IMG/VR virus record: IMGVR_UViG_3300030520_000070
Coordinates: 1 to 38,234 of that record
Source of the DNA: a virus
Reading direction: 5' to 3' (one strand)
DNA: 38,234 nt
Below are positions 5,562-38,091 of this stretch, piece after piece (position 1 is the stretch's first letter; every line of letters begins with the position of its first letter). The notes under the pieces were generated by a model, which was given only the letters and a program-made list of their open reading frames with translations, did no database searches and was not told where the DNA came from. A program made the translations under genes and the position numbers.

Positions 5562-5771
5562 GTTTTTTTGTAGCGGTTCGGGTGGGTGAATGTTGTTTGG
5601 TTTTGGCTGACATGTTAAGGTGGTGATGGAGCGCAATCCTGCCTGGGAGGCGGGATTGCGGGAGTGTGCTGTGGGATAGGGATCTGCCAGAAGCGGCCGG
5701 TCGTGGGAATCATCGAAAGCGGTCACTCACACGGATGGTGCGTGTAGCCATCCATGCGTGCGCCCCTATAA

Positions 5772-6218
5772 ATGTCCGTAATTGGTATAGACATGCGAAC
5801 TGCTCAAAGAATATTGTTTTCTGTCTTTAGCGCGTCACTTGTGCCCGCAGTTTTGTTCACGCTCGTCTCATCCATTCTTGACTCAGGGTTTTATGGTTGG
5901 GCTGTCATTATTTTTCCTTTTGTGTTGCTTACGACTTTTTCGCATACTCTCTTTTTAGGCGTTCCACTTTTTTTGTTATTGAGAAAACTCAGTTGCGTTC
6001 ATTTGTGGTCAATGGCCGCTTTGGGCTTTTTTGTCGGAGCATTACCCATACCAATAAGTGGGGCATTGATGTCGTGGCTTCGCAATGGGGCGGACATAGG
6101 CTGGGACGAATTTATAAAAGGATTCTTCTCCGCTGGGGTGGTCGGAGCAATTGGGGGACTTGCCTTTTTTCTGACATGGAAACGTTCAAATCGCCTTGAT
6201 GAACATCGTGCACCTTGA
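5772..6218 (+). CDS. Hypothetical four-helix membrane protein (accessory)
   Basis: A 148-residue protein with four hydrophobic segments at about residues 12-35, 41-65, 78-100 and 119-138, ending in a short basic/charged tail (KRSNRLDEHRAP). ATG 5772 or ATG 5793 could be the start; neither has a good ribosome site. Base composition is visibly more A/T-rich than in the flanking phage genes, which suggests separate acquisition. It starts the accessory cassette between the early and late operons. Superinfection exclusion or a holin-like role are possible for such genes, but nothing in the sequence decides this. Confidence 0.65.
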   Translation: MSVIGIDMRTAQRILFSVFSASLVPAVLFTLVSSILDSGFYGWAVIIFPFVLLTTFSHTLFLGVPLFLLLRKLSCVHLWSMAALGFFVGALPIPISGALMSWLRNGADIGWDEFIKGFFSAGVVGAIGGLAFFLTWKRSNRLDEHRAP

Positions 6219-6230
6219 ACTGGCAGGGCG

Positions 6231-6336
6231 GTAGGTCAGATGAGCCGAAGGCGTTATCCGACGTATGAAAAAATGGTGACGCACATACGCGGATCGCCGC
6301 CCGGTCGGAAGGCGCTGCGCTTTTCCGACCTACCGC
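6231..6336 (+). repeat. Repeat family B (GGTCGGAAGGCGC type), copy 1
   Basis: About 105 bp starting GTAGGTCAGATGAGCCGAAG and ending GCTTTTCCGACCTACCGC. The right part is itself a hairpin, GGTCGGAAGGCGC paired with GCGCTTTTCCGACC. The same block is found inverted at 8831-8970, where the minus strand reads the same sequence. Open frames through it are by-products of the repeat. Confidence 0.8.
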
Positions 6337-6387
6337 GCTGGTTTGGCACCTGTTTTAAGTATTGCTTGATGAAAGACCGACTTAAAT

Positions 6388-7104
6388 ATGTTTTGCCGAC
6401 TCTTGTTTGTCGTCGTATTCTCGAACCTGTCGCTCGCAGCTATCGCCGCCGACACGCCCTCGAAGGCAAGCGGCGTGGCTTCCGAAGATATCTCTCCAGA
6501 TATTTATGACACTTGTGGCTGTCCAAGCGGTAGCGCGCTAACGCTCTGCGCATTAATTGCCGAGAAGGCCAATGTCAAGATCAGTCAAAAGCGATTTCTG
6601 AGCATTGTGAAGACATTCAATGCGGCTGAGGGAATCGAAGCGAATCATCTGCGAGCGGCCGCAGAACGGTTCGCGCAGGATCGAGGACAATATGAAACTG
6701 ATGCCACCGGATCCGCGAGAGGCGCATTGGCAATCGAAGCACGCACCGATGAATTGAATTTGTTTCTGGACGATTTGCAAGGGTTCGAGGCTGGCCATTT
6801 TCCCGAGGTTCATACTTCGCATGAAACGGCGGTTGTGGATCAGGAATTGAATCAGGCCTACAAAGAAGTATTGGCGATGCAACCCGATCAAGACAACAGA
6901 TTTGGCTTGTCGGAAATCACGCTTGAGGGAGTACGTGCGACCGAGCGGAACTGGATTGCATATCGCAACGCATGGGTGGATTTTGGCCGCCTTCGATATC
7001 GGAAATTAGATGCGGCCTCACTGCAATATTCGCTTACCAAAAGACGCGTGGCTGAACTGGAGGATGTGTTGTATACGCTGCGAAATTGTGTGGGATGTCC
7101 TTAG
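6388..7104 (+). CDS. Exported LprI/DUF1311-like protein (possible lysozyme inhibitor)
   Basis: A 238-residue protein with a Sec signal peptide (basic start, hydrophobic residues 5-20, AIAAD near 18-22). The C-terminal half fits the LprI/DUF1311 pattern: VVDQELNQAYKEVLAM, then VRATERNWIAYRNAWVDF and LQYSLTKRRVAELEDVL. Family members are periplasmic or surface proteins, some inhibiting lysozyme. The region between, including DTCGCPSG and ALTLC with three Cys, is unlike the short family members and may be an extra domain. In a prophage this could modify lysis, or protect the host against lysozyme; that is inference. There is no strong ribosome site. Confidence 0.7.
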   Translation: MFCRLLFVVVFSNLSLAAIAADTPSKASGVASEDISPDIYDTCGCPSGSALTLCALIAEKANVKISQKRFLSIVKTFNAAEGIEANHLRAAAERFAQDRGQYETDATGSARGALAIEARTDELNLFLDDLQGFEAGHFPEVHTSHETAVVDQELNQAYKEVLAMQPDQDNRFGLSEITLEGVRATERNWIAYRNAWVDFGRLRYRKLDAASLQYSLTKRRVAELEDVLYTLRNCVGCP

Positions 7105-7123
7105 ACAACAACGAATTAGGGCC

Positions 7124-7181
7124 GTAGGCTGGGACGAGTCCCAGCTTTCGCCTACAGATGCTGGGACTCGTCCCAGCCTAC
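7124..7181. repeat. Perfect 22-bp inverted repeat, stem-loop
   Basis: Arms at 7124-7145 and 7160-7181 are exact reverse complements separated by 14 nt. Each arm itself contains the palindrome CTGGGAC-GA-GTCCCAG. It sits just after the LprI-like gene and could stop transcription in either direction, although no T-tract follows. Confidence 0.9.
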
Positions 7182-7277
7182 GAGCTACGAGCTGCTTCAA
7201 CGCGGTAAAGGTGTAAATGGCAGGGCGGCATCCGCTCTGCCGAGCTACCGTACTGCAGATTCCTCCAACGAATTCGT

Positions 7278-7283
7278 TATAAT
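7278..7283 (+). promoter_or_regulatory. Possible -10 box for the 7342-8816 gene pair
   Basis: A perfect TATAAT at 7278-7283 lies about 60 bp before ATG 7342. The -35 position (GCAGAT with 17-bp spacing) is poor, so the call is tentative. Confidence 0.35.
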
Positions 7284-7341
7284 CCTCTTTCATTTTTCGT
7301 AACCTGAAATCGCCCGTAAACGTCAATTTATTCGATAACTC

Positions 7342-8334
7342 ATGCTCAAAAAATTGTTTGCTGCGATTGGTCTTGGTTCTGCCGCTGCCGCCGCCCCGGG
7401 CAAAGCGGCTGTCGCAATCTATTCGCCTTATACGAGCGAATCCTCCAACGTTATTTACAATTTGTTGTTTTGTGATGACCTCGCTGCATTCAAGGTGAAG
7501 CCGGGCGCGAGCCCTACGCACTGGCATCAGGTTCTTTTTTCCGAACCGGGCGACGTCGCGGCATTGGAAGCGCTTGCTGCCGACGTCAATCAAGAGGGGC
7601 GCATTCGATATCTGGCGTTTTCCAAGCTTCGCGGGCTTGGAAAATCCGTTCCGCCGAAGATTTCGCTTGGCGTGATCGTTGAAGTTCCGCTGGCGGGCGG
7701 TCTTGATACGCTGGCCGCGTTTTCGGAGGGCGGGGTTCGATACATCAATCAATCGGGTAAGCTCGTCGTGATTGAAGGCGTGGAAAATTTCTCGCTCATG
7801 GTCAAGCGCTTGTTTGCCGCATCGGAGCCGCTCGTGGCGCGGATCGGACCGTGGGACAAGCCGCGACTGGCGCCGCCAAAGCAAAGTAATGTGCGTTTGA
7901 CCTTCCTGGTATCTGACGGCATGTATTTTGGCGAAGGGCCGATGCTGGTGATGGAGCATGAAGCCTTGGCTGGACCGGTCATTCATTGTGCAACCGCGTT
8001 GCTTCAGGCTGTCGTCGCAACGGGCACGGCGCCGGTCGCGGCACGGAACATGGATCAGCCGAACAAGTCGGATGCAGATTGGCAGCCTAGTCCGGCGCAA
8101 TCTGAAGAAATCAACAGATTCTGCAACGGCTGGCAATTGATCGCCGGCCAAGTGTTCTCGATGAAACAACAAGGCAAGCCAAGATCACAATCGCCTGGCA
8201 CCAACCAACTCTACGAGAGAATTGCAGATGAGATTTATTCGCCCGATTCTTCTATTACGAGTCAGGAGATGGCGCGCGCTTTTGCGCACCAGCTTTGCCT
8301 TCCGCTGATCAGAGACATCATCAGAAACAGATGA
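7342..8334 (+). CDS. Hypothetical 330-residue protein (accessory)
   Basis: Not recognised. The N-terminus (MLKKLFAAIGLGSAAAAAPG) is short and hydrophobic but lacks a clear cleavage site. The remainder reads as a soluble alpha/beta protein of two similar-sized parts: residues 20-155 (VAIYSPYTSESSNVIYNLLFCDD... to VVIEGVENFSLMVKRLF) and 175-330. No catalytic motif is evident. It overlaps the next gene by 4 nt (ATGA at 8331-8334), so the two form an operon and probably act together. Codon use looks like that of a chromosomal gene rather than of a phage structural gene. Confidence 0.7.
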   Translation: MLKKLFAAIGLGSAAAAAPGKAAVAIYSPYTSESSNVIYNLLFCDDLAAFKVKPGASPTHWHQVLFSEPGDVAALEALAADVNQEGRIRYLAFSKLRGLGKSVPPKISLGVIVEVPLAGGLDTLAAFSEGGVRYINQSGKLVVIEGVENFSLMVKRLFAASEPLVARIGPWDKPRLAPPKQSNVRLTFLVSDGMYFGEGPMLVMEHEALAGPVIHCATALLQAVVATGTAPVAARNMDQPNKSDADWQPSPAQSEEINRFCNGWQLIAGQVFSMKQQGKPRSQSPGTNQLYERIADEIYSPDSSITSQEMARAFAHQLCLPLIRDIIRNR

Positions 8335-8816
8335 AAAAACACGCTTTTCCAATGGCTGCGTGCCTGGCGCTTGGCGGCTTGTTTGCCTTTCTCCCTGCGT
8401 TCGCGCAGGAGGGAAGTTCGGCAGAATCGCTGCTTGTCGTTGTGGGCGATCCGATGCCGGCGGTGCGCTTCGGGCACGAAGATCATTGCACGGGCATGCA
8501 GGAGATCGATCGGGGCAGCGGCGGCAAGGTGAGCCGGTTGAATGTCATTCTTGCGGCGAATACGCAAAACTGGATCAGTTTGGTGGGCGAGGTCAAGGGC
8601 GGGAAGTGCGAGAGCGTGACCTCGCTCGTGCCTTTGGCGGGCGTCGGCTATATCGCCAAGTTGAGCAAGCTGAGCTGCAATACGGAGCTGTTTCAGGCGA
8701 GGAAGGGCGAGGCGCCGCTTCTGATCAAAACCGGCAACGAATCGATGATGAAAACGCTGCTGTGCGCGGCGTCCACCGGCCCGGCTGATCAAGCGGGGGT
8801 GATGTGCGGCGCGTGA
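8331..8816 (+). CDS. Small exported hypothetical protein
   Basis: A 161-residue protein started at 8331, where ATGA overlaps the preceding stop; an in-frame upstream ATG at 8295 is less likely. It has a clear signal peptide (MKKHAF, hydrophobic core, AFAQ cleavage near residue 26). The mature part is small and carries four cysteines (HCTGM, KCESV, SCNTE, LLCAAS) plus a terminal Cys (MCGA), consistent with a disulphide-bonded periplasmic protein. No family is recognised. Coupling to the 330-residue protein suggests a shared task. Confidence 0.7.
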   Translation: MKKHAFPMAACLALGGLFAFLPAFAQEGSSAESLLVVVGDPMPAVRFGHEDHCTGMQEIDRGSGGKVSRLNVILAANTQNWISLVGEVKGGKCESVTSLVPLAGVGYIAKLSKLSCNTELFQARKGEAPLLIKTGNESMMKTLLCAASTGPADQAGVMCGA

Positions 8817-8830
8817 GGCTGTGCACAGCC

Positions 8831-8970
8831 ATAGGTCGGATGGCCGCCCCAGAAAAGCGTAGCGCCTTCCGGCCGGGCGGCGATCCGCGCATGGTGCGGC
8901 ATTTTGATATGTCGGTTTCATACGTCGGATAACGCCTTCGGCTCACCTAGGCGGCCCCATCCGACCTACC
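8831..8970 (-). repeat. Repeat family B, copy 2 (inverted)
   Basis: Begins ATAGGTCGGATGGCCGCCCC and ends CATCCGACCTACC, and contains the AGCGTAGCGCCTTCC and CGTCGGATAACGCCTTCGGC motifs of the family in reverse orientation to the copy at 6231. It follows the last accessory gene directly. Confidence 0.8.
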
Positions 8971-8993
8971 GCCTGTAGAAAAATTTGAATCAG

Positions 8994-9114
8994 CGCTTGC
9001 CCGTTCAGGACATGCGGCATTATCATACGAAGTACGGGGCGGGTTTGCTCGTCCGGAGAAAAGCCTGCTGATTCAAATCGGCGGGCTTTTTGCATTGTTG
9101 CGCCATGAAAATTG
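8994..9114 (+). ncRNA. Promoter-hairpin-terminator unit, copy 1 (candidate leader RNA)
   Basis: A 121-bp unit repeated at 9455-9575 (106 of 121 identical, no gaps). TTGCCC (8997-9002), an 18-bp spacer and TATCAT (9021-9026) look like a sigma-70 promoter. A transcript from about 9033 would hold a hairpin GGGCGG/UCGUCC (9037-9054) and then an intrinsic terminator with stem 9060-9072/9077-9089 and T5, giving an RNA of about 60 nt. Differences between copies keep both stems paired, using G-U pairs here. Placed between the putative late regulator and terminase, it resembles lambda pR'-tR'. A host regulatory RNA is the alternative. Confidence 0.6.
9060..9091 (+). terminator. Intrinsic terminator of leader unit 1
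   Basis: The stem AAAGCCTGCTGAT pairs with ATCGGCGGGCTTT (with two G-U pairs), with a 4-nt loop TCAA and a TTTTT tail. The A-run on the 5' side also gives it activity potential on the minus strand. Confidence 0.85.
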
Positions 9115-9122
9115 TGGGGTTG

Positions 9123-9234
9123 TCGGTCGGATGGCCGCCCCTGGAAAAACGTTGCGCCTTCCGACCGGGCGGCGATACGCGTATGGGGCGATATTTCATG
9201 CGTTGGATGACGCCTTCGGCGCATTCGACTTACG
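9123..9234 (-). repeat. Repeat family B, copy 3 (inverted)
   Basis: GTCGGTCGGATGGCCGCCCC to GCATTCGACTTAC, with the same internal motifs as 8831-8970 (GCGCCTTCCGACCGGGCGGC and GGATGACGCCTTCGGC). It separates the two leader units. Confidence 0.75.
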
Positions 9235-9349
9235 GGCATGGGGCGGGTGGCGATCCGATGAGGGAGATTGCAAGTCGGCTCGCTTTGTCGGATCAAGACG
9301 TCGTTCGTCAAACACAGAATTCCTTAGCTTAAGCGAACGTGGTCGGTAA

Positions 9350-9399
9350 AGGGACGTCCCTCACCCCCACCCCTCTCCCGCCTGCGGGCGAGGGGAGTT
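9350..9399. repeat. Palindromic repeat family A, single copy
   Basis: The core CCCCTCTCCCGC-CT-GCGGGCGAGGGG lies at 9370-9395, preceded by the typical flank ACGTCCCTCACCCCCA. This is a half unit without an inverted partner close by. Confidence 0.8.
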
Positions 9400-9454
9400 T
9401 CACCGAGCGTGAGAAAACGGCTGTTTGATCTGCTCAAATAAATAGTTTAAAAAC

Positions 9455-9575
9455 CGCTTGCCCGTTCAGGACATGCGGGCATATCATTACAAGTACGGGG
9501 CGACTTTGCTCGCCCGGAGAAAAGCCCGCTGATTGAAACCAGCGGGCTTTTTGCATTGTTGTGCCCTGAAAATTG
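9455..9575 (+). ncRNA. Promoter-hairpin-terminator unit, copy 2 (candidate leader RNA)
   Basis: Second copy of the 121-bp unit. The promoter is TTGCCC (9458-9463), 18 bp, TATCAT (9482-9487). The first hairpin is now fully Watson-Crick: GGGCGA/TCGCCC (9498-9515). The terminator stem is AAAGCCCGCTG/CAGCGGGCTTT with T5. It is the last promoter-like unit before the small terminase (9961), so read-through from it would transcribe the whole late operon in the presence of an antiterminator. Confidence 0.6.
9521..9552 (+). terminator. Intrinsic terminator of leader unit 2
   Basis: The 11-bp perfect stem 9521-9531/9540-9550 has an 8-nt loop and a T5 tail. This is one of the strongest terminators in the window, standing about 400 bp upstream of the packaging genes. 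Confidence 0.9.
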
Positions 9576-9599
9576 CAGGGCCGTAAGTATGGGCGATAT

Positions 9600-9960
9600 T
9601 CTCATACGCCGGATGACGCCTCTGCTCCCCAGGCGGGCCGATCCGATCTACGGCCTGCAACTTTGAGGGTGACAGCCGGTTGGATCGCTCCTGTTGCGCT
9701 TGGTCTTGTGCCCTTGCGCTGGCGGAATCGCCAGTATCCAGGCACCGCCAGCCGCCGCCACGCTTGATGTCTTTTGCGCTTGCATTGCCTATGCATGCGG
9801 CGCGTCGACTAGTGGATTCCCTCATTCTATTTTTGATGCGATGCCGGTGCTGTTGCCGCGGTATTTTTGATCGGGCGATGTGGCGCGATCGTTCGCCTGC
9901 GTGTTGTGCGCGGGCGTCTTTTATTGCGGCGGCGCTGCGGCCGGCGATGGCGGGAGGGTG
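9600..9960. other. Untranslated late leader before the small terminase
   Basis: There is no convincing gene. Short frames here (for example 9680-9961) are Cys/Arg-rich with no ribosome site or recognisable domain. The interval may simply be late-transcript leader. Confidence 0.4.
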
Positions 9961-10722
9961 ATGGGTCGCAAGTCCAAATTGACCGATGCAGCGTGGGAAG
10001 CCATTGCTGCACGCTTGCGCGGCGGCGAGACGGTGCGCGAGCTGGGACGCGAGTTTGGCGTGAGCGAGGCGACGATACGCTGGCGCTTGCCGGCGTTGAG
10101 GGTGAAAGCGGATGCGGCCGCTGACGATGGTTCGGCGTTGGGAAGCGCGGTACAGGCTTCCTTGCCATCGCTTGAGCCGGCACAAGCTGCGCTGCGCTTG
10201 CCGTCGCAGGCGTCATTGCGGACCTTGTCGCCCGGCGCTGCGCGATCGTCTGCGCAAGCTTCATCGCAATCCTCTGCACCATTCCCGTTGACGCCATCGG
10301 CACAAACAGTAAGCCGCCAGCTTGCCGCCACGCTTCTCGTCGTTACCGATCATCTGTCCGGTGCGGCGTTGACGGGCGCGGAGATGGCGCGCTGCCTGGC
10401 TGAGATGGCGCAGGAGCAGGTGGCGCAGCTTGGGCTGATCGCGCAGAGTGCGCAGGATGGTTCGATCACGCAAGATTCCCAACGCGCTGCGCCGTCGATG
10501 CTGGTGGAGGCGATCAAGCGCATCCAGTTGTTGACGGCGGCGTCGAACAATGCGGCCGAGCTGGGGATGAATTTGCTGAAGGCGAACAAGGAACTGACCC
10601 ATGCCGAAACGGAGCCGACGCCGGTTACGATCGCTTTCACGGTGAAGGATGCGCGAGTCGATGCGGACGATAACATTTTCGCTGAACCGGCCGCAGGCCA
10701 GGTTCCTGCAGCTGCCGCATAA
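9961..10722 (+). CDS. Terminase small subunit
   Basis: A 253-residue protein. The N-terminus (residues 5-50) is a helix-turn-helix of the type used by small terminases to bind packaging DNA: LTDAAWEAIAARLRGGETVRELGREFGVSEATIRWRL. The middle is Ala/Ser/Gln-rich and flexible. The C-terminal part (about 120-220) is helical and probably oligomerises or contacts the large subunit. ATG 9961 is preceded by GGGAGGG. The gene overlaps the start of the large terminase by 74 nt in another frame, tightening the pairing. The acidic end (DARVDADDNIF) is typical of the interaction tail. Confidence 0.8.
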   Translation: MGRKSKLTDAAWEAIAARLRGGETVRELGREFGVSEATIRWRLPALRVKADAAADDGSALGSAVQASLPSLEPAQAALRLPSQASLRTLSPGAARSSAQASSQSSAPFPLTPSAQTVSRQLAATLLVVTDHLSGAALTGAEMARCLAEMAQEQVAQLGLIAQSAQDGSITQDSQRAAPSMLVEAIKRIQLLTAASNNAAELGMNLLKANKELTHAETEPTPVTIAFTVKDARVDADDNIFAEPAAGQVPAAAA

Positions 10723-11977
10723 GTTCAAGGCTTACGTGGCCGGGTTCGGCAGCGGCAAGACCTATGTGGGCTGCGCCGGCATGGCGGCGCATTTCTGGCG
10801 CTGGCCCGGGGTCAATCAGGGGTATTTTGCGCCGAGCTATACGCAGATCCGCGATATCTTTTATCCGACGATGGAAGAGGTCGCGGAGGCGATGGGCTTG
10901 CGCGTGCTGGTGAAGAAGACCGATCACGAGGTTGATGTATTCGAGGGCGGCAGCTATCGCGGCACGGTGATTTGCCGTTCGATGGAGCGGCCCGAGACGA
11001 TCGTGGGTTTCAAGATCGGGCATGCGCTGGTCGATGAGCTCGATGTGCTGGCGCCGGAGAAGGCGCGCACGGCCTGGCGCAAGATTATTGCGCGCATGCG
11101 CTACAAGATCGATGGCCTGCAAAACGGCATCGACGTGACGACCACGCCCGAGGGTTTCCGCTTCGTGCATGAGCAGTTTGTGAAGGCGGTGCGCGAGCAG
11201 CCGGGACTTGGCGATCTGTACGGCATCGTGCAGGCGAGCACGTTCGATAATGCGGCCAATCTGCCGCACGATTATGTCGATGCGCTGATGGCGTCGTATC
11301 CGCCGCAGTTGATCAAGGCGTATCTGCGCGGCGAGTTCGTCAATCTGACTTCGGGCGCGGTGTATCCGGATTTCGACCGGCGCTTGAATCATACCGACGA
11401 GATCATACGCGAGCGCGAGCCGCTGTTCGTCGGCATGGATTTCAATGTGATGAACATGAGCGCGTGCATCAACGTGATCCGCGACGGCTGGCCGATGACG
11501 CTGGCCGAGCGCATGAATGTGCGCGATACGCCGGCGATGGCGCGGATGCTGCGCGAGGAGTTTTTGGCGAAGGGGCATCCGGTGCGGATTTTTCCTGATG
11601 CCTCGGGGAAGCATGCTTCCAGCCGCGACGCGAGCGAATCGGATTTGTCGATCCTGCGCGAGGCGGGGTTTGTGATCGAGTCCGACGCGGCCAATCCGGC
11701 GGTGAAGGATCGCGTGAATGCGTATAACGCGCTGATCTTGAACGCGCAGGGCGAGCGCAAGTGGAAGATCAATACGCATGCCTGCCCTGTTACGACTGCG
11801 TCGCTGGAGAAGCAGGTGTGGGGCGAGGATGGGGCGCCGGACAAGCGGGCGGGGCATGATCATGCGAATGATGCGAATGGGTATTTTTTGGTGAAGAGGT
11901 GGCCGATTGTGCGGCCTGCTGTTGCTGCGGAGGTTCGGGCGGCTCGGGTTGTGCGGGTGGGGTATGTGGGGCGGTAG
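10649..11977 (+). CDS. terL: Terminase large subunit (packaging ATPase and nuclease)
   Basis: A 442-residue packaging motor that pumps DNA into the prohead and cuts it. Walker A is GFGSGKT (residues 32-38); Walker B is ALVDELD with the acidic pair 129-130. The C-terminal RNase H-like nuclease has its acidic residues in VGMDFN (Asp264), RIFPDASG (Asp317) and GHDHANDANGY (Asp404/Asp408). All key residues are present, so the enzyme looks functional. The start at 10649 has GAAGG just upstream; ATG 10661 is the alternative. It is followed by an 800-bp gene-free gap with repeats, unusual inside a head operon. Confidence 0.95.
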   Translation: MRESMRTITFSLNRPQARFLQLPHKFKAYVAGFGSGKTYVGCAGMAAHFWRWPGVNQGYFAPSYTQIRDIFYPTMEEVAEAMGLRVLVKKTDHEVDVFEGGSYRGTVICRSMERPETIVGFKIGHALVDELDVLAPEKARTAWRKIIARMRYKIDGLQNGIDVTTTPEGFRFVHEQFVKAVREQPGLGDLYGIVQASTFDNAANLPHDYVDALMASYPPQLIKAYLRGEFVNLTSGAVYPDFDRRLNHTDEIIREREPLFVGMDFNVMNMSACINVIRDGWPMTLAERMNVRDTPAMARMLREEFLAKGHPVRIFPDASGKHASSRDASESDLSILREAGFVIESDAANPAVKDRVNAYNALILNAQGERKWKINTHACPVTTASLEKQVWGEDGAPDKRAGHDHANDANGYFLVKRWPIVRPAVAAEVRAARVVRVGYVGR

Positions 11978-22083: not shown

Positions 22084-22279
22084 AGTCCAGCCGGTGATGC
22101 TGGTTAGATACATGAGGCGCGACTGCAGTTCGCCCTCCTTTCTATGGGAGGGATGCGGCATCTCCTTTTTCCATTCCACATCCTCCTTCGCGCGGCTAGA
22201 TCGATCATCAAAAAGCCGGCCGCTCACCGGCCTGCCGCGCAATCTTTTTCCTGAGCGTCATCGATAGAAAGAGCAATCC

Positions 22280-36756: not shown

Positions 36757-38091
36757 TCAAGCGGCGCGCCGCAACGACACGATCATTTCCGGAACCGGTT
36801 TCCCGTTGGTGTATTCGTGCACGCCCTCATCGATCTGCACGATCTCGAAGCCCTGCGCTGCGGCAGTGCGCGCGACATAGTTCCTGCCGTGGAAATAGCA
36901 GCCGCCCTCGGCGAAGCCGTCCAGGCTGCCGACCGAAAAACGCTCCGGGTCCGGGTCGGGAAACACCGTGAAGACGAACAGTCCGCCCGGCTTGAGCGCA
37001 GCGGCCGCTGCCTGGAATATGCCCGAGAGATCGCCGAAATGGATCAGCGTTGCGGCCGACGTGATCGCATCGTAGCTGGCCGGATTCATGCGCATGAATT
37101 CGATCATGTCGCCGCCGAACAGCCGGTTGTAGGCGCCGCTTGCCTGTGCCTGCAGCAGCATCGGCTCGGAAATATCGACACCGTGCAATTCGGCCGCCAT
37201 GTCGCGGATGCGCCGTCCCACGAGGCCCGTGCCGCATCCTGCATCGAGGATGCGCAGCCCGGCCGGCGCCAGGCGGCGCAGCGCCGCTTCGACCAGCAGC
37301 ATGCCGCGGTAGTTGTGATGGGCTTCGACGTCGTGGTCCCAATGCGCGGCGCGCTCGGTGTAGAGCTTCTGCAGATAGGCGTCGGGCGCGCGTTCGGGGA
37401 TGTCCGTGCCGCCCAGCGCGGCCAGCACCAGCGCACAACCTTCGGCGTCGGCCGGGTCGCGCTTCAATGCCAGTGCGAGGAATTGCCGCGCCTTGTCGAC
37501 CACGCCGGCGCGGGCGTAAATCTTGCCCAGCGTCGCCATGTTGAAATGGGGATGGTGGGCAAACTTCGCCGCCGCATCGACTTGCGCCAGCGCGTCGTCC
37601 CGCCTGCCCTCGGCCAAGAGGATCTGCGCATAGGCAAGGCGCGCCTCGGCATTGTCGGGCTTCAACTGGATGCCGCGCAACAGTGACGGCGCCGCGTCTT
37701 GCGGGCGGTGCTGCGCAAGCAGCAGGTGCCCCAGATTCGAATGCGCATAAGCATCGTTCGGATTGAGTTCGATCGCGCGCCGGTACGCGGCACTCGCCTC
37801 GTCCGAGCGGCCCAGCGCACGCAAGGCCTGCCCGAGATTGACGTGAAACGCCGACATCGCCGGGTTGCCCTGCACGGCCTTGGTGAACAGCTCTACCGCA
37901 ACGTCGTTGCGCCCGACGCGATGCGCGATCAAGCCCAGATTGTGGTTGGCCAGCGCGTGGGCCGGCTGCGTCTGGAGGATGGCGCGATAAATCTTTTCCG
38001 CCTCGGGCAGGCGGCCTGCCTTGAAATGTTCACCGGCCTGCATCAGGGCCTGGTCGATCGAAAGCTGTTTTTGCTGCACGTTGCACCGCAT
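36757..38091 (-). CDS. TPR-repeat protein fused to a SAM-dependent methyltransferase
   Basis: A 444-residue protein. Residues 10-215 hold about six tetratricopeptide repeats (for example AEKIYRAILQTQPAHALANH, AAYRRAIELNPNDAYAHSNL). Residues 275-440 are a class I methyltransferase with motif I ILDAGCGTG (281-289) and the acidic loop HGVDIS. The methyl acceptor is unknown; related TPR-methyltransferases work on cell-surface or glycan-linked substrates or small molecules. It is transcribed against the phage and stops 30 bp from the endolysin stop. It could be a lysogenic-conversion gene or the first host gene beyond the prophage. Confidence 0.8.
   Translation of the reverse strand: MRCNVQQKQLSIDQALMQAGEHFKAGRLPEAEKIYRAILQTQPAHALANHNLGLIAHRVGRNDVAVELFTKAVQGNPAMSAFHVNLGQALRALGRSDEASAAYRRAIELNPNDAYAHSNLGHLLLAQHRPQDAAPSLLRGIQLKPDNAEARLAYAQILLAEGRRDDALAQVDAAAKFAHHPHFNMATLGKIYARAGVVDKARQFLALALKRDPADAEGCALVLAALGGTDIPERAPDAYLQKLYTERAAHWDHDVEAHHNYRGMLLVEAALRRLAPAGLRILDAGCGTGLVGRRIRDMAAELHGVDISEPMLLQAQASGAYNRLFGGDMIEFMRMNPASYDAITSAATLIHFGDLSGIFQAAAAALKPGGLFVFTVFPDPDPERFSVGSLDGFAEGGCYFHGRNYVARTAAAQGFEIVQIDEGVHEYTNGKPVPEMIVSLRRAA

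Follow-up and report, generated by a model that had tools for sequence, protein, structure and literature searches.

We found a compact cassette, comprising a predicted promoter, a conserved RNA hairpin and an intrinsic terminator, that by sequence comparison is a linked family with one gene, here called Q-like. Neither the RNA element nor the regulator was previously catalogued. The family spans at least 47 viral contigs, in which an as yet unnamed regulator is accompanied by a promoter of fixed layout and by an RNA hairpin that covaries and lies at the predicted start of the transcript. The comparison among phages supports reading these parts as a late promoter and, with it, as a new variant of Q-type late control. 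We put at roughly three in four the probability that the cassette is a late promoter–attenuator analogous to pR′-tR′ of phage lambda, run by a putative new Q-type antiterminator. The window, by which we mean the whole stretch of 38,234 nucleotides that was analysed, carries two copies of the cassette (Table 1).

Table 1. Features of the window that bear on the cassettes, their regulator and the late genes
Feature	Position	Strand	Basis or detail
Q-like regulator gene, 134 aa	5157..5561	+	Cassette partner in 46 other viral contigs (one cut before the gene)
Cargo between Q-like gene and cassette	5562..8978	+	ORFs 5772-6218, 6388-7104 (LprI-like), 7342-8334, 8295-8816, plus repeats
Cassette 1 promoter, −35 TTGCCC, 18 bp, −10 TATCAT	8997..9026	+	Sequence; near-same position relative to the hairpin in other phages' cassettes
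Cassette 1 predicted leader RNA, about 58 nt	9034..9091	+	Start inferred 7-8 nt past −10; end is the terminator U-tract
Cassette 1 conserved 5′-terminal hairpin	9035..9056	+	Core stem 9037-9043 with 9048-9054; covariance model R1 80.6 bits
Cassette 1 intrinsic terminator, 15-pair stem, T5	9058..9091	+	RNA fold
Intergenic repeat and REP-like element between the cassettes	9120..9439	+	Repeat comparison
Cassette 2 promoter, −35 TTGCCC, 18 bp, −10 TATCAT	9458..9487	+	Sequence
Cassette 2 predicted leader RNA, about 58 nt	9495..9552	+	Start and end inferred as in cassette 1
Cassette 2 conserved 5′-terminal hairpin	9496..9517	+	Fold; covariance model R1 83.4 bits
Cassette 2 intrinsic terminator	9519..9552	+	Scan and fold
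Intergenic repeat again, truncated, following cassette 2	9587..9660	+	Repeat comparison
First late gene, probable small terminase subunit (HTH protein)	9961..10722	+	Late gene
Terminase large subunit	10649..11977	+	Late gene

Linkage of the cassette to the Q-like gene

A single-sequence protein search with the Q-like gene product found a homologue with 50% identity (L182). A profile search with this protein gave four loci, one of which (L214) lies on the same contig as L182, and a wider profile gave eleven, seven of them on new contigs. The DNA 3′ of each homologue contains a promoter, about 6 nt, a hairpin of the type TACGGGGYG..TTCGCTCGYCC, the linker GAGAAAAG and a terminator. A covariance model of the cassette, built from five sequences, recognises the cassettes behind the newly found homologues with E-values of 1e-13 to 8e-11. 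The cassette of L225 reached E 0.67 with the model alone and was placed by eye at the matching position.

The reverse search started from the RNA element. We ran a degenerate DNA pattern of hairpin and linker (GGNNGNNTTYGYNCGYCCNGARAAAAG, about 38 bits) over IMG/VR, where by our own estimate ~0.3 matches are expected by chance, and it matched 42 viral contigs. The Q-like gene lies upstream on the same strand in 41 of the 42 (E 1e-26 or better); the remaining contig ends 26 nt before the hairpin, so the position of its gene is not judgeable. These 42 contigs, together with L182, L212, L225, L226 and the window, make up the 47. The stop codon is usually 15-21 nt from the hairpin, but the distance is 48-53 nt in three contigs and 554-579 nt in three more, because a gene sits between the Q-like gene and the hairpin in the latter. 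L226 likewise has a gene between the two and has kept its cassette. Another locus, L228, matched an earlier, narrower hairpin pattern by chance, in coding DNA, and was rejected by the covariance model.

The sequence-only reading had likened the position of the window's cassettes, after a Q-like gene and before terminase, to that of lambda pR′-tR′. The family agrees with this: the cassette occurs behind the homologues in other contigs, usually 15-53 nt past the stop codon, and terminases follow where tested. The suggestion that the cassettes could be late promoters for antitermination, which we treat as a candidate function, is strongly supported by the same comparison, given that the cassette lies behind homologues of the same gene.

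The large terminases behind the relatives' cassettes belong to at least three PHROG families (phrog_9, phrog_2 and phrog_38), and the regulator and cassette therefore form a module that is combined with different packaging modules. Ten downstream ORFs were scanned, and two (in L213 and L220) had no match. Relatives that were chosen as possible carriers by their terminase or tail sheath lack the unit, since it is the Q-like gene, rather than the structural genes, that the module moves with; most of the weak matches inspected in them were ordinary terminators.

Searches of other collections gave no relatives of the RNA element. No Rfam family reached its gathering score, either over the window's two cassettes or over those of 11 relatives, and the sub-threshold Rfam matches to the unit are mostly single terminator stems. 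DNA similarity between the window unit and 50,697 annotated phages was not found, and the cassette of L213 matched terminator-like pieces alone in annotated phages. An exact pattern of the promoter part matched nothing in IMG/VR or GTDB genomes, because this part is not conserved between phages. In the open-access literature, we did not find a described RNA-hairpin late promoter.

Some further features of these late regions can be noted. In L182, three successive terminator-like hairpins, recognised by eye, lie between the Q-like gene and terminase (10480-11006). Two tRNA genes separate the cassette of L213 from its late genes (1255-1446); one of them spans 110 nt, with an unusually long insertion or variable region. 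Within the window's late operon, between tail genes, an Rfam search matched the int-alpA RNA (RF02996) at 22189-22257 (+) with 43.1 bits (threshold 35.8); as this RNA takes its name from integrase and alpA, its occurrence here is unexpected. Compared with the window's tail sheath, the homologues in L112, L117 and L122 (around 10550-11020) contain about 450 nt of extra sequence at residue 184-190, which is in frame and open in L117 and L122 and probably encodes an extra domain. At the right end of the window, after a glucosaminidase gene, a TPR-repeat protein with a C-terminal methyltransferase domain is encoded at 36757-38091 (−).

Promoter geometry and RNA structure

The sequence-only reading had described two 121-bp units in the window, each with a promoter, a first hairpin and a strong intrinsic terminator, and we recovered all of these parts. 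The core units (8994-9114 and 9455-9575) are identical at 106 of 121 positions and lie within direct repeats (8979-9119 and 9440-9580) that agree at 84% over 141 nt. Both contain the promoter-like TTGCCC-18-TATCAT, and these two sites are the only promoter matches in the range 7500-10500. The 74-nt RNAs downstream fold into two hairpins each, with energies of −32.6 (z −4.3) and −34.2 kcal/mol (z −5.1), and 0 of 200 shuffles were as good. The second hairpin of each unit is an intrinsic terminator ending in TTTTT; that of cassette 2 was called by a scan, and that of cassette 1 was taken from the fold (15 pairs, then TTTTT). Directly after the first hairpin of cassette 1 comes the conserved linker GGAGAAAAG.

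The further claim that substitutions between the copies keep both stems paired is only partly borne out in the window. In the cores of the stems the changes are one-sided swaps between G-U and Watson-Crick pairs, and the claim does not hold for a few outer or inner pairs: the innermost pair of hairpin 1 and two loop-closing pairs of the unit 1 terminator are lost between the copies. We saw no compensatory double change in the core between the two units. As an argument for selection on structure, the two window copies are only fair, and comparison with sequences of the relatives provides the stronger evidence.

A separate feature of cassette 1 lies just 5′ of its promoter, where ATTTGAATCAGC (8983-8994) is a perfect 12-nt complement of GCTGATTCAAAT (9067-9078) in the loop region of terminator 1. 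This complementarity is absent at unit 2. In a transcript started upstream, pairing of ATTTGAATCAGC with GCTGATTCAAAT could form an anti-terminator.

We surveyed promoter geometry in 46 distinct cassettes, 45 of which have upstream sequence. The −10 element is TAnnnT in 44 of the 45, the −35/−10 spacer is 17 bp in 42, and exactly 9 nt separate the −10 from the hairpin core in 37, so that the family promoter can be written TTGC..-17-TAnnnT. A T-run follows the structure in 43/46 cassettes. The −35 is mostly TTGCAA or TTTGCA, overlaps the final codons of the Q-like gene and in many cassettes deviates from consensus. Since the spacing between −10 and hairpin is nearly fixed, the RNA should start only about 1-3 nt before the hairpin.

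The hairpin covaries. For thirteen cassettes (those found through the protein, L229 from the earlier pattern and both window copies), its covariation was 0.183, compared with 0.091 ± 0.015 in shuffles (0/500) and at most 0.087 in slid controls; several of these sequences are closely related, and their relatedness remains in the shuffles. Column pair 13-20 occurs as UA, AU, GU and UG, and the extended stem gains pairs 6-27 and 7-26.

Conservation is unevenly distributed over the cassette. The stem and loop of the terminator vary among cassettes, while the 5′ hairpin is kept. In cassettes found by protein homology alone, the mean information per position is 1.28 bits for the hairpin, 1.57 for the linker and 0.67 for the −35/−10 spacer, the last value being too high, as the spacer of attached cassettes doubles as coding sequence. 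L221, whose cassette is separated from the regulator by a gene, offers the cleanest comparison, with L223. Their regulators are identical at 102/129 positions and their cassettes at 73/75 positions from the −10 to the terminator, versus 6/17 in the spacer. This divergence tentatively argues against a protein-binding element between −35 and −10. In addition, TAnnnT occurs in the initially transcribed region of 0/46 distinct cassettes, and the sigma-dependent pause site of lambda and 21 is therefore absent by sequence.

The Q-like protein and the layout of the window

The Q-like protein has no sequence match in Pfam (searched with 12 family members), PHROGs (two members), NCBIfam or PDB sequences (searched with a profile). 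Annotated phages and plasmids likewise gave no convincing match, nor did samples of 369 and 398 genomes, which were searched with no positive control. The Q-like proteins start with a conserved basic stretch of the LRRVRKE type.

An AlphaFold model of the protein, made from 13 sequences, has a mean pLDDT of 72. Its residues 20-127 match Q of phage 21 (6p1a_C) with Z 5.3 over 82 residues (rmsd 4.0), which is below the tool's clear level, and the tool warns that such Z values may reflect common arrangements. Domains of sigma factor region 3/4 match the model at Z 5-7, as well as or better than 21 Q does. Foldseek gave no significant match in PDB (no E below 1) or among viral structures. The modelled likeness to 21 Q is modest support for a Q-type regulator. 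We use the label "Q-like" on account of the gene's position and this moderate structural match, without sequence homology.

Within the family, the window is an outlier. Its cassette is duplicated and 3.4 kb of cargo lie between cassette and regulator; the other contigs have one cassette each within the stretches examined. Three of the four cargo ORFs have no Pfam match, and the fourth is LprI-like. Because L221, L226, L246 and L249 also carry a gene at the matching place, their sequences suggest that insertions are tolerated at this point between regulator and cassette. The length of the gap in the window could also mean that the system is decaying here.

What follows cassette 1 recurs in shortened form after cassette 2, so cassette and repeat were duplicated together. 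A further copy of the intergenic repeat precedes cassette 1, and recombination between repeats is a plausible route for the duplication.

Two kinds of repeat recur in the window. The intergenic repeat, roughly 110 bp long (GGTCGGATGGCCGCC...), occurs at 6231-6326 (−), 8834-8945, 9125-9236 and 9587-9660, and the sampled Stenotrophomonas-order genomes, for each of which only two candidates were scored, gave no reported match. A REP-like 38-mer has about 15-20 copies in intergenic gaps throughout the prophage, at sites that include 2018, 2186, 9371, 12338, 14317, 15299, 17165, 19724, 19948, 22059, 29085, 29222 and 29445. A similar 38-mer is present in 20/299 genomes of the Stenotrophomonas order. 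This density of REP-like elements is unusual for a phage and perhaps reflects long residence in the host.

Proposed mechanism, alternatives and known systems

From the observed linkage, promoter geometry, RNA structure, terminator and late-gene context, we infer that the Q-like protein is an antiterminator and the hairpin its loading signal. Each unit would consist of a phage late promoter joined to an attenuator. RNA polymerase would start at the promoter, the leader RNA would begin at once with the conserved hairpin, and the polymerase would stop at the intrinsic terminator after about 58 nt, leaving the capsid and tail operon off. The Q-like protein, presumably expressed early from the early operon, would then engage the polymerase in the leader region, such that terminators are ignored and the 27-kb late operon is switched on. 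In the window, the cassette and its flanking repeat would have been duplicated, and cargo genes inserted between regulator and cassette.

The hairpin could contribute in either of two ways. It may prolong a promoter-proximal pause of the polymerase, giving the Q-like protein time to load. Alternatively, it may be bound as RNA by the Q-like protein, whose basic N-terminus would allow this. The linker, NGARAAAAG, has about the length of the RNA-DNA hybrid, an arrangement likened to hairpin-stabilised pauses. Speculatively, once hairpin 1 occupies the exit channel, a polymerase paused in that way would have reached the beginning of the terminator stem or the position just before it. The cassettes might even represent a separate class of phage late antitermination, in which a Q-type protein is loaded via a 5′ RNA hairpin that replaces the sigma-dependent pause and DNA element; this proposal is tentative, and we give it somewhat less than even odds.

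A complete promoter–RNA–terminator unit that specifies a conserved, structured RNA is also what two small regulatory RNAs of ~58 nt would look like, the other option raised by the sequence-only reading; they would regulate host or phage mRNAs in trans and would not depend on read-through. We consider this unlikely in view of how closely the unit is tied to a single regulator gene and to the place where the late operon begins. Moreover, the conserved part adjoins the start of the polymerase, and the terminator varies in stem and loop while the 5′ hairpin stays. The small-RNA and attenuator readings are compatible, as an attenuated leader can also act in trans.

Less probable still is a leader RNA that acts alone like put of phage HK022, whose nascent hairpins bind polymerase and suppress termination without a phage protein. 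The two RNAs are alike in size, position and two-hairpin layout. Here, however, hairpin 2 is a terminator with a U-tract, and the RNA would need to overcome the very terminator that it contains. A self-sufficient RNA would also have no use for the Q-like gene, with which the element is always paired, and put acts on early operons.

We give equally little weight to the Q-like protein being some other regulator, e.g., an activator of the late promoter or a factor resembling sigma region 4, with the terminator as a mere insulator. The match of its fold to sigma region 3/4 (Z up to 7.0) and the off-consensus −35 in many cassettes would suit such a role. However, an insulator between promoter and operon blocks the operon unless it is overcome, and the conserved hairpin lies downstream of the start, whereas activators bind upstream.

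Finally, a dispersed host repeat that resembles a promoter and terminator by chance is largely refuted: although the copies are embedded in intergenic and REP-like repeats scattered through the window, the unit occurs only twice in the window and once per contig elsewhere, and the Q-like gene always precedes it. The sequence-only reading had named many copies scattered over unrelated host loci as a refutation of its own proposal; such copies were not seen, the unit being present in 0/398 genomes of the Stenotrophomonas order (no positive control), with only the REP-like 38-mer in some.

The reading as a late promoter–attenuator run by a Q-type antiterminator thus remains our preferred one. To our knowledge, the molecular details of late-gene antitermination have been worked out for few regulators. 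The Q systems of 21 and lambda and the AlpA system, compared below, load through promoter DNA, and the new family provides parts for testing RNA-assisted loading. The covariance model and the protein profile together are a marker with which late promoters in uncultured phages can be annotated. The duplicated and displaced copy in the window provides a natural experiment on whether the site needs its regulator gene beside it.

Lambdoid phages (lambda, 21 and 82) also place one late promoter between Q and the late operon. The likeness of the cassettes to pR′-tR′ extends to a short leader RNA, an intrinsic terminator and late genes beyond, with late promoter and terminator within about 200 nt here, and the regulator may share the fold of 21 Q, with no sequence homology. 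The Q proteins known so far make use of two elements, a Q-binding site within the −35/−10 spacer and a −10-like pause site in the region that is transcribed first (PMC6606751). By contrast, our cassettes have no −10-like pause (0/46) and a spacer that is unconserved when detached (6/17), and carry a conserved 5′ RNA hairpin instead. The lambdoid rule that the promoter lies directly behind the regulator gene applies to most relatives, at 15-53 nt; the distance is 554-579 nt in some, and in the window the cassette is displaced by 3.4 kb of inserted genes.

In the parts of the source drawn on here, AlpA of Pseudomonas aeruginosa is described as letting polymerase pass terminators that begin 26 and 54 nt from the start site (PMC7969949). 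On that account, AlpA resembles the proposed system as an antiterminating regulator unrelated in sequence to lambda Q. It differs in needing a DNA element between −35 and −10, and a leader hairpin is not described in those parts of the source.

The put RNA of HK022 is about 70 nt with two stem-loops, and putL lies just downstream of its promoter (PMC9378689). Judged by layout, our leader is similar as a promoter-proximal RNA with two stem-loops. However, put uses no phage protein and serves early operons, whereas here stem-loop 2 is a terminator and a protein gene is always linked. The nut sites of lambda, on which N acts, also belong to early operons and include boxA and boxB, but they would have in common with our cassettes the recruitment, by a hairpin in the leader, of an antiterminator whose N-terminus is basic, which is the LRRVRKE-type stretch here.
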